This document shows positions 25,850 through 33,699 of a stretch of DNA of 64,000 nt, one piece after another. The stretch lies in the IMG/VR virus record IMGVR_UViG_3300032313_001394, positions 1 through 64,000 of that record; one strand, 5' to 3'. Made by a program: the position numbers and the translations under genes. Below the pieces are notes generated by a model. The model saw nothing but the letters and a program-made list of their open reading frames with translations. It was not told the DNA's origin and did no database searches. This DNA is from a virus. Each line of letters starts with the position of its first letter. The first letter of the stretch is position 1.

Positions 25850-25857
25850 TATAAATA
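25850..25857 (-). promoter_or_regulatory. Class 1 promoter-like element
   Basis: The coding strand reads CGATATTTATAACAGAG, 19 bases before the ATG of the core operon, just after the portal stop. Confidence 0.65.
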
Positions 25858-27756: not shown

Positions 27757-29331
27757 CTACAATAACCAATTTAGATCATGATTGTTTCCATATCCGTCCT
27801 TCATTTCCCAAGGATTTGTAGGTAAATAACTTTGGTTATTTACTGATGTAGAAGAAATTGATAATGAATTTAAAGTTGCTTTAGTCATATCCATACCATT
27901 TTGATGGTAAACTAATGCGGTATCCCTGACGTATAACCCAAATGATAGAGCTAATACTAAGTCGTCGTTATATCCACCTTGAGCTTGAGCTTTGCCGTTT
28001 TCCCAAATGAATGTTCTTAATTCTTCGATTGTACGTTTTGATTGAACTACAAATTGACGTTCGCGTAATGATGTTTCTAATTTAGAAATAAATAACGGTC
28101 GTGTACGAGTTGAGTTAGTAATACCTTGAACAGTTTGATCATTTTCCATTCTAGATACAAAATTATCTATAGACATATCTGTTCCTTTTGGAGAATAATA
28201 TACATTCTGATATCCAGTATCAGCTATTGTATTTAAAACATCCCAACCTAAAGTTGCGTTTTCAACTACAAGTAATGCATTATTATATTCTGTTGCTGCT
28301 GTTACTAATAAACGTCCGAACTCTCGAGTTCCAATTTTAGATTTAAATTCAGCTACTTGTCTAAATTCTTTAGTAGCTATTATATGAAAAGTTGAATAAT
28401 CACTTCCATCTCCACGAGCAACGTCAGCACTTACTATATATGTTTCTGTTGGATTAGCGTATTCATAAATCCAATAATCACCTCCCATACCACGTCTTTC
28501 AACAGGATCTATTACATATGTTTTTTCATAAAATTCAATTATATCATTTGTAATAACATTATTACCAGAAGCTAAAAAGTCACACTCATATTCTTGAGCA
28601 ATCTCTCTAGGATTCATATTTTGTTTTTCACGATCAAACCATACTTCATCACGTTCAGGATGCACATCCCAAGGTAATTTAATTGGAACAAAATCGTTTT
28701 CTGAATTTAAAGCAGATACCCAAGTTTTATGGAACCAATTACCTACACCATTTGGTGAAGATAAAGCAATACACCCACCACCTGTTGAAATAGTAGGTTT
28801 AATACTTGTATATATTTTATCAATCCCATCAATAAAAGCAGCCTCATCAATTAATAATAATGAAACAGCATATGAACGACCTGCATCTCCCGCAGCTGAT
28901 GATGCTACAATCTGAGATCCGTTTGATAATTTTAATGATAATTTATTATTTGAATCTGGTTTTTGATTACCTTTAAGCCATCCTGGTAATTGTTGATACA
29001 TAAATTGTACCTTATCTACCATGTTTACGGCTGTAGTTTGTTTGGTTGCAATACAGAGTACAGTTTTATCTTTATGAAACAACATTGTCCATAATGAAAA
29101 ACCAGCAGCTAATGTTGATATACCTAATTGACGTGATTTGTTAATAATTGAATAATCGTGTTTTAACCACAATTTCAATACTTTTTCTTGGAATGGATAT
29201 AGATTAAAATTTACTCGACCTCTTGTAGGGTGTTGAACCATACAATATTTTTTCATAAAATGAATTGGATCTTGTAAGCACTTTATATATTCTTGACGGA
29301 TTATATCCTTTATATTCTGTTGATCGCTCAT
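27757..29331 (-). CDS. Terminase large subunit, gp17-like
   Basis: Protein of 524 residues (T4 gp17 has 610). It carries the packaging ATPase and headful nuclease. The Walker A position reads SRQLGISTLAA (66-76), lacking the usual Lys of GKT after the Gly. The conserved Arg/Gln pair upstream is present. Walker B is LLLIDEAAF (159-167, Asp162-Glu163). The RNase H-like nuclease starts at VSADVARGDGSDYS (Asp302), with LVVENATLG and NDDLVLALSF carrying the later acidic residues. It overlaps the lipase gene by ATGA. No small terminase is visible nearby. Confidence 0.95.
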   Translation of the reverse strand: MSDQQNIKDIIRQEYIKCLQDPIHFMKKYCMVQHPTRGRVNFNLYPFQEKVLKLWLKHDYSIINKSRQLGISTLAAGFSLWTMLFHKDKTVLCIATKQTTAVNMVDKVQFMYQQLPGWLKGNQKPDSNNKLSLKLSNGSQIVASSAAGDAGRSYAVSLLLIDEAAFIDGIDKIYTSIKPTISTGGGCIALSSPNGVGNWFHKTWVSALNSENDFVPIKLPWDVHPERDEVWFDREKQNMNPREIAQEYECDFLASGNNVITNDIIEFYEKTYVIDPVERRGMGGDYWIYEYANPTETYIVSADVARGDGSDYSTFHIIATKEFRQVAEFKSKIGTREFGRLLVTAATEYNNALLVVENATLGWDVLNTIADTGYQNVYYSPKGTDMSIDNFVSRMENDQTVQGITNSTRTRPLFISKLETSLRERQFVVQSKRTIEELRTFIWENGKAQAQGGYNDDLVLALSFGLYVRDTALVYHQNGMDMTKATLNSLSISSTSVNNQSYLPTNPWEMKDGYGNNHDLNWLL

Positions 29332-30065
29332 TTAATCCAGTTTTCTAATGCTTTTAAATAACCATCACCCATATGGTCTTTGACAGTTTTACCTGAAAAT
29401 AATGCTTTAAGATATAACCAAAATGATCTTAATGATGATTCTTTTTTTAATACATTACCATCTGTATCTAATCTTACTTGATAATTTACGTGGTGAAATC
29501 TAATGTATGGTACGTGAGTTACTAAATCGTTTTTATGTACAATTCGTAGAGTATCTATATCACTATTATCATAGTTATCCTTAAATACTTTATTACCAAC
29601 TCTAGGACTACCAATAGTTGTTGATTTAACATTATAATGCGGATAGTGTTTTTTAATTGAGTGTGCGTATAATGTTGCTACTGCACCCCCTAAACTATGT
29701 CCACAAACTACAATATCTGTAGCTTCACCTTGTAGATTTTCTAATGCAGTATCTATTGCGTTGTAAGTATCATCCACTACTGATTCCCAACAATATTTAA
29801 ATCCAATATGAACCTTTTCACCATCGTTTAAGAATGGTACTTTATCAATTGAAGCATCATTTTGGAAATCCTTCTTTGATTCACTACCTCTCCATACAAC
29901 ATATATTGATTTATCTTTTGTTGCTACAAATCCTTGTGTGTCTGATTTTTTATTTTCAATCCACTTAACTAATTCTAACCCATATTCATCCCAATTTATT
30001 TGGTCTTTGTTTGAATAAGCTAACACTGCTAATTTTGAATTATATAAGGCTTCGTTTCTTGTCAT
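29328..30065 (-). CDS. Class 3 lipase-like alpha/beta hydrolase
   Basis: Protein of 245 residues with a complete lipase_3 layout. An oxyanion-type VVWRGSESKKDF lies near 57-68, the nucleophile elbow GHSLGGA has Ser124, and SPRVGN follows at about 153-158. The acid is Asp180 in HKNDLVTHVP, and the His is probably His231 in DHMGDGYLKAL. Bacterial and fungal members hydrolyse acylglycerols or phospholipids. No signal peptide is visible, so it would act in the cytoplasm or leave at lysis. It is first in a two-gene late operon and overlaps the terminase start by four bases. Confidence 0.85.
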   Translation of the reverse strand: MTRNEALYNSKLAVLAYSNKDQINWDEYGLELVKWIENKKSDTQGFVATKDKSIYVVWRGSESKKDFQNDASIDKVPFLNDGEKVHIGFKYCWESVVDDTYNAIDTALENLQGEATDIVVCGHSLGGAVATLYAHSIKKHYPHYNVKSTTIGSPRVGNKVFKDNYDNSDIDTLRIVHKNDLVTHVPYIRFHHVNYQVRLDTDGNVLKKESSLRSFWLYLKALFSGKTVKDHMGDGYLKALENWIK

Positions 30066-30079
30066 AATGTGTTTTTGTA

Positions 30080-30087
30080 TATAAATA
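30080..30087 (-). promoter_or_regulatory. Class 1 promoter-like element
   Basis: The coding strand reads CTATATATTTATATACAAA, 15 bases before the lipase ATG and just beyond the upstream terminator. Confidence 0.6.
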
Positions 30088-30090
30088 TAT

Positions 30091-30120
30091 AGAAAAAGAA
30101 AAGCCTACTAAAAGTAGGCT
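30091..30120 (-). terminator. Intrinsic terminator after leader-bearing protein gene
   Basis: On the coding strand AGCCTACT/AGTAGGCT forms an 8-bp stem followed by TTTTCTTTTTC. It lies after the stop at 30153. Confidence 0.85.
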
Positions 30121-30152
30121 CTCTAAATAAACAAACATTATTATGAAAAATC

Positions 30153-31328
30153 TTATAGCTCTTCATCATCTTCGCCTTCACCAGCCGTATCGACACCTGT
30201 TAAATCTACTTTTTCATCATCAGGTACATCCATACCAATTGATTTGTAATAAGCTTCGATATCGTCTTTAGACATTGGGGCGCCTTTTTTCTTAGGAGCA
30301 AATTCTTTTTTACTTAGTGGTTTTAATTGTTTTGAATTAATTAATTTAGTTACTATTTCACTATATTTTTCGGTTAGTCCTTCTGGTTTTTTACCCTCTA
30401 ATAATCCGTTTTCATTAGCATAATCTTTTAATGGTTCATCAATTCCTGCTTCTAAATATCCTTCTTTCCATTGGTATAATAATGCTGCAGCTAAGTCATC
30501 ATTAAGCATATTTGCCATTTTTTCTGCTGATGTTATTTCACCTTGTTTACCTTTTAATGATTTATTGATTTTAACGTCTGCTCTATTTTGTGAACCTTTA
30601 GTAAAATAATCAGCTCGTAAGAATTTATAGTCTAGTACTTTTTCAGCTAATGTATTTGATTGTTTAAATGATGCTTGTTTAGCAGCAAATGCTTCAGGAT
30701 CAGTAACAGCTTGTTGTTGTGCTTTTTCAAAGTCAGTTAAACGTTTATCTTTAGAACGTACGAATGGAGTCCAAGAAATAGCATTTAAATCACCTGGTTC
30801 CCATTTCTCACCTGTAGCAGGATTAATTAATTGAGTATATCGTCTATTGAATTCATCTGAATTAATTCCACCCCATAACCATCCTTTAACGTTTACTGTT
30901 GCTTTTAGAGCAGCTAATGCTTCAGGATCGTTTGCTAATTCTTGTTTTAATTTAGTAAATAATTCACCTACAGATGCATTTTCTTCTATTTTTAGAATAT
31001 CAACCATTTTGATTATGATTCTTTTAACATATTCTTTTTCTTTTTTAATACGTGGTAGGTATTCTTTTAAACGCTCATCAGCATCTGCTTTTAAAGCATA
31101 AGTAGCAGTAGTTGGAGCCGCCATTTCACGAACTGAATTAATAGATTCTAAATTAACTGTATCTCCTTTCTTTAATGCATCTTCTGCATCTTTTTTACCT
31201 TGAGTACTTAATTGATTATATTTTTTGTCTTTTTTCAAGTTATTAATAGATTCAGAATCTTTACCACCGTATACTTCTTCACGAACGATATTTTTAATTA
31301 CTTCTTTTAATTTAGTATATTTATCCAT
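30153..31328 (-). CDS. Large leader-bearing protein, possible internal virion protein
   Basis: Protein of 391 residues. The N-terminus (MDKYTKLKEVIKNIVREEV) is an amphipathic leader. A Lys/Glu-rich spacer and two helical regions follow, the second with AEKVLDYKFLRADYFTKGSQ and ALLYQWKEGYLEAG. The tail is strongly acidic (ends GEGEDDEEL). No enzyme motif is visible. It is a one-gene unit with a class 1 element upstream and a terminator downstream, so it may be made in quantity late. The packaging idea is inference from the leader. Confidence 0.6.
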   Translation of the reverse strand: MDKYTKLKEVIKNIVREEVYGGKDSESINNLKKDKKYNQLSTQGKKDAEDALKKGDTVNLESINSVREMAAPTTATYALKADADERLKEYLPRIKKEKEYVKRIIIKMVDILKIEENASVGELFTKLKQELANDPEALAALKATVNVKGWLWGGINSDEFNRRYTQLINPATGEKWEPGDLNAISWTPFVRSKDKRLTDFEKAQQQAVTDPEAFAAKQASFKQSNTLAEKVLDYKFLRADYFTKGSQNRADVKINKSLKGKQGEITSAEKMANMLNDDLAAALLYQWKEGYLEAGIDEPLKDYANENGLLEGKKPEGLTEKYSEIVTKLINSKQLKPLSKKEFAPKKKGAPMSKDDIEAYYKSIGMDVPDDEKVDLTGVDTAGEGEDDEEL

Positions 31329-33492: not shown

Positions 33493-33699
33493 TTATGAGA
33501 AAGATTCAGCTCGTTGTCTTAATTCTTTAGCGTACTGTTCCATTGCTGTAGCTAAATTTATAAAATCGTATACATCATCAGTATAGGTTTCAGTAAAATC
33601 AGCTAATAAACCTAAATAATGTTTTACTGGTGGATGTTCATCCGCCATAGCTGATTTAATTTCTTCTTGAATTATAGCTTTTAATTCTTTTAGTTTCAT
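33493..33699 (-). CDS. Small leader-bearing protein
   Basis: Protein of 68 residues, MKLKELKAIIQEEIKSAMAD at the start, then a short helical body (YDFINLATAMEQYAKELRQR). The first 18 residues are one of the clearest examples of the amphipathic leader seen on many proteins here. A class 1 element lies 24 bases upstream, making it the head of the operon ending at 32274. Confidence 0.6.
   Translation of the reverse strand: MKLKELKAIIQEEIKSAMADEHPPVKHYLGLLADFTETYTDDVYDFINLATAMEQYAKELRQRAESFS

Follow-up and report, generated by a model that had tools for sequence, protein, structure and literature searches.

A class 3 lipase gene that stands directly ahead of the large terminase gene in this phage accompanies, across its viral relatives, envelope and lysis-type genes more widely than packaging genes. 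Because related viruses carry it in such company, the lipase is more likely to help break the host envelope than to help pack DNA. Our main reading, to which we give a probability of about 0.5, is that it is a cytoplasmic enzyme, made late, which would attack envelope lipids at lysis in the manner of LysB but from another protein family. The window, that is, the whole 64,000-nucleotide stretch analysed here, belongs to a viral record of 139,243 bases that carries a T4-like terminase, portal, major head protein, head-tail adaptor and tail fibres. The best isolate match to its terminase is that of Flavobacterium phage immuto (52%), so the host is probably a member of the Bacteroidota, and probably an aquatic, Flavobacterium-like bacterium; the same match argues against a host with a mycolic-acid outer membrane. 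Elsewhere the record encodes a 544-aa protein that by eye resembles a GroEL-like chaperonin (G000 106409-108043, L099).

The product is a real class 3 lipase. It matches Pfam Lipase_3 with E = 1.6e-29 and 103 bits against a cut-off of 22, solved fungal lipases match it (1lgy, for example, at E = 5.7e-20), as does the esterase/lipase family phrog_21992 (4.9e-13), and this homology to solved members implies an alpha/beta-hydrolase fold. The earlier note had described an intact triad and was right to place the nucleophile at Ser124; Asp180 and His231 complete it (Table 1). All three residues are unchanged in 38 of 38 non-redundant phage relatives and stay invariant when a cyanobacterial relative of 32% identity joins the alignment, the Ser-Asp-His order and the Ser within GxSxG are those of Lipase_3 members, and in the profile alignment D230-H231 falls on the "DH" of 6a0w, 1lgy and 1tgl. 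His192 was considered as the catalytic His and rejected, since it is invariant among the phages yet lost in the bacterial relative, while H231 aligns with the DH motif. That the protein has no signal peptide also holds: hydropathy finds no hydrophobic segment at its N-terminus, and in close relatives the most hydrophobic 19-residue stretch begins at residue 119, beside the active Ser. With a median pairwise dN/dS of 0.15 (1066 pairs), the gene is under purifying selection.

Table 1. Features of the lipase locus, in window coordinates
Feature	Position	Strand	Evidence or remark
Large terminase (T4-like gp17), 524 aa, downstream partner in transcript	27757..29331	-	Terminase_6N, phrog_2
ATGA overlap of lipase stop and terminase start	29328..29331	-	same overlap in group A relatives
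Class 3 lipase gene, 245 aa, ATG start, cytoplasmic by sequence	29328..30065	-	Pfam Lipase_3, viral relatives, dN/dS
Catalytic His231 codon (KDHM)	29373..29375	-	invariant; aligned with DH motif of 1tgl, 1lgy, 6a0w
Catalytic Asp180 codon	29526..29528	-	invariant; aligned with Asp of 1lgy, 1tgl, 6a0w
Catalytic Ser124 codon (GHSLGG)	29694..29696	-	invariant in 38 relatives; aligned with Ser of solved lipases
ATATTTATA promoter-like element, 14 nt before lipase ATG	30080..30088	-	strand and intergenic bias
Terminator-like hairpin with T run, closes upstream gene	30090..30124	-	fold -14 kcal/mol, z -2.3
Upstream gene, 391 aa	30153..31328	-	no Pfam or PHROG match

A terminator-like hairpin closes the upstream gene, and the lipase therefore opens a transcript. 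The stem of the hairpin, GCCTAC/GTAGGC, becomes GTCCGC/GCGGAC or ATCCGC/GCGGAT in relatives, with both sides changing. The "class 1 element" from which the gene had been said to be read is probably ATATTTATA, which recurs in the window in 13 copies, including those at 25850, 27731, 30080, 31354 and 54726. All 13 lie on the coding (minus) strand and none on the plus strand, and 11 are wholly or almost wholly intergenic, in a window that is ~96% coding. This bias in strand and placement is non-random; counted on both strands, the element is in no excess over shuffles (13 observed, 8.6 expected, with 13 of 100 shuffles reaching 13). The copy at the lipase is kept in five relatives (L002, L003, L004, L013 and L016). 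Since the element also stands before the portal gene and tail-side genes, it likely marks the late class, and we infer that it is a late promoter; its core, TATTTATA, is the T4 late-promoter box TATAAATA read on the opposite strand. At the other end of the gene, the coordinates bear out the ATGA overlap with the terminase (Terminase_6N, 7.5e-11; phrog_2, 2.7e-46): the lipase stop occupies 29328-29330 and the terminase ATG begins at 29331, and the overlap is present in all scorable group A loci. The gene upstream of the lipase shares with many unrelated proteins an N-terminus of the form M..LKxxIxxEE or MKxIxTESQ (window 30153-31328 and 33493-33699, and neighbours in L107 and L276), which may serve as a targeting signal for the head or prohead.

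Scanning viral contigs yielded 66 lipase loci, to which later scans added L107 and L276-L278, for a total of 70. The terminase adjoins the lipase in 30 of these (two also with c11, a small membrane protein), and c3 and/or c4, members of an envelope cluster, lie beside it in 32 (three also with c11); c11 is the sole partner in three, all these partners are missing in five, and no locus among the 70 has both the terminase and c3/c4 near the lipase. The contexts are read from metagenomic contigs, of which many are fragments, and there are several near-duplicates among the loci; these counts are therefore of records and not of independent events. Lipases of groups A and B are 82-87% identical, and the group B terminase is only 49-52% identical to that of the window. 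In the lipase DNA tree, several forks of which are weak, groups A and B are intermixed, and L037/L039, L107 and group C, which are not terminase-linked, fall outside the mixture. This disparity and the mixed tree indicate that phages have exchanged the lipase gene and that its site has changed; its position ahead of the terminase is probably derived. Recent pick-up from a sequenced bacterium was rejected: one scan of 84,980 species genomes brought a single match, a 605-aa cyanobacterial protein at 36%. Isolate phages gave two distant matches, a Salicola phage protein and MT836410.1 (L237). The latter was deposited as "Bacteriophage sp."; by eye it looks like an effector locus of a secretion system and not like a phage, with its lipase after a large protein resembling a secretion-system spike, and it is perhaps bacterial DNA filed as phage. 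We found nothing close to a phage-encoded class 3 lipase in the literature.

The partner that recurs across contexts is c11, an 88-aa membrane coiled-coil protein with a short N-terminal part, one transmembrane segment and a charged helical tail; 224 relatives of it occur among viral contigs. In eight records from several unlike contexts (L011, L036, L033, L035, L044, L054, L063 and L107) the distance between c11 and the lipase is three genes at most, and in L011, L036 and L107 the stop of one gene overlaps the start of the other; L011 and L036 have a shorter upstream gene, then c11, on the upstream side of the lipase. In L063 the row reads CHAP endolysin (Pfam, 1.2e-9), c11, lipase, and it is only in this L063/L112 context that an endolysin lies two genes upstream of the lipase. 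The best ~80 c11 loci have among their neighbours, up to three genes away, a two-TM family (26 placements), c3 (14), GH19 endolysins (12) and M15 peptidases (6). The hydropathy of c11 fits the i-spanin plan of an N-terminal transmembrane segment and a helical tail, and its match to the Rz-like spanin family phrog_739 is weak (E = 0.057). Near the c11-lipase pairs of L011, L036, L063 and L107 there is no o-spanin-type lipoprotein; the clusters of groups B and C have lipoproteins 2-3.6 kb away. A c11 homologue also occurs in LR756502.1 (L101:5974-6285), a 642-kb uncultured phage genome, among unrelated genes with no lipase or endolysin close by.

The envelope cluster of groups B and C comprises a protein with a C-type-lectin match, two small lipoproteins, c6, c4, c7 and c3, of which c6, c4 and c7 are small transmembrane proteins and c3 is a secreted protein of 239 aa. 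Profile searches placed none of these in a firm known family except for the lectin match, and the label "holin-like" is putative, being read from the transmembrane pattern. The genome of the window holds homologues of c6, c4, c7 and c3 and a weak lectin-type homologue at 123.1-127.6 kb, with no lipase among them, and a PG-binding/GH19 endolysin (G000 121806-122636) adjoins this cluster. Lysis regions in which a GH19 endolysin lies near small transmembrane proteins have been described for two other flavobacterial phages (PMC8776804). In group B a TonB-dependent-receptor-like protein follows one to three genes after the lipase, as an 827-aa outer membrane barrel in L039:7949-10432 (OMP_b-brl_3, Plug, CarbopepD_reg_2) and as homologues in L025, L027, L031, L037 and L043. 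To our knowledge, it is unusual for a phage to carry a receptor-type protein.

We propose that the enzyme would be made late in infection as a cytoplasmic serine lipase, from the same message as the terminase, and would build up harmlessly in the cytoplasm until the action of holin and endolysin lets it reach the envelope. Its targets there would be inner- or outer-membrane glycerophospholipids, whose cleavage would breach the last layer of the envelope and release the virions. In many relatives the lipase is paired with c11 or with envelope-cluster proteins; in the phage of the window it stands ahead of the terminase, and c11 was lost or never present. Of the two roles raised in the earlier note, action on the host membrane at lysis has gained comparative support from the c11 pairing, the endolysin-c11-lipase row and the endolysin beside the homologous cluster, while packing into the virion has gained none. 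Several observations count against the lysis reading: in the record of the window the lipase (29.3 kb) and the endolysin (121.8 kb) are ~92 kb apart in contig coordinates and a homologue search finds no c11, in other lineages the GH19 endolysin is at least 15 kb from the lipase, and no o-spanin-type lipoprotein accompanies c11 and the lipase in L011, L036, L063 or L107. A bolder form, in which a mobile module of lipase and c11 would serve T4-like and giant phages of Bacteroidota as an enzymatic means of disrupting the outer membrane, with lipid hydrolysis replacing spanin membrane fusion, is unlikely.

The serious rival is that the lipase modifies host lipids or the envelope during infection, acting in the cytoplasm on host membrane or storage lipids; fatty acids might be freed, the membrane remodelled, or the envelope altered jointly with the cluster's secreted proteins, for example against a second phage. 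This is possible, if distinctly less probable than action at lysis. A lipase with no export signal fits it, as does a gene exchanged between phages like cargo, and the neighbours in groups B and C, which are signal-peptide proteins and lipoproteins, need not be lysis genes, nor need the receptor-like barrel of group B. It accords less well with the promoter-like element common to structural genes, the co-transcription with the terminase in the lineage of the window, the c11 and endolysin neighbours, and the lack of any match to defence models; a defence effector was rejected, PADLOC returning no match.

That the lipase is packed in the head or tail and acts on the envelope at entry is quite improbable. 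The lineage of the window does transcribe the lipase with the terminase, ahead of the portal, but the protein lacks the head-targeting-like N-terminus of neighbouring proteins and is not fused to a tail module, and its position in groups B and C is not tied to structural genes. We give very little credence to the functional "coupling" to the terminase once proposed, in which the two products would be balanced for packaging or act jointly: the ATGA is conserved in all scorable group A loci, but a single phage lineage has the two genes side by side (30 of 70 loci), 32 loci hold the gene in another context and so refute any general rule, lipases 82-87% identical lie among secreted and membrane proteins 52-114 kb from the terminase in other phages (contig coordinates of the three group B records holding both), and in immuto the terminase and portal stand in the same row but no lipase precedes them.

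Among known enzymes, the fungal-type class 3 lipases of Rhizopus and Rhizomucor (1lgy, 1tgl) share with the phage lipase the core region by sequence, the GHSLGG motif and the Ser-Asp-His triad, but the latter is a phage gene product with no signal peptide, a short single domain of 245 aa and its own conserved SKKDFQNDASIDKVPF in the lid-aligned region. Mycobacteriophage LysB offers a functional parallel, as it too is a phage serine esterase/lipase for which a role at lysis, on the last layer of the envelope, has been proposed (PMC6116114, PMC5707550); its deletion lowers the burst from 147 to 53 and leaves phage trapped (PMC5707550). LysB, however, is cutinase-like, cleaves mycolyl-arabinogalactan and has its gene invariably downstream of lysA within the lysis module, whereas the lipase is of another family, has a probable Bacteroidota host and varies in gene place, and in the genome of the window it does not lie in a lysis cassette beside the endolysin. 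The GDSL lipase of Pseudomonas syringae phages (part24) is likewise lipolytic and encoded with lysis genes by a phage whose host is Gram-negative; from its place in a lysis cassette it contributes to killing Gram-negative cells (PMC12173070). It differs in being a GDSL enzyme that carries a carbohydrate-binding domain, not a Lipase_3 member, and the passages cited describe no c11 partner. The lambda Rz-type i-spanin resembles c11 in its single N-terminal transmembrane segment, charged helical tail and lysis-gene neighbours, but c11 gives a weak profile match, has no nearby o-spanin in four contexts and is absent from the genome of the window.

One survey found spanins annotated in only some flavobacterial phages (PMC8776804), and how Bacteroidota phages open the outer membrane is poorly described. 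A conserved and exchanged Lipase_3 gene linked to lysis-type genes is a candidate for a step in Gram-negative lysis that works by lipid hydrolysis; the case of the lipase and the terminase illustrates that gene adjacency can mislead on function.
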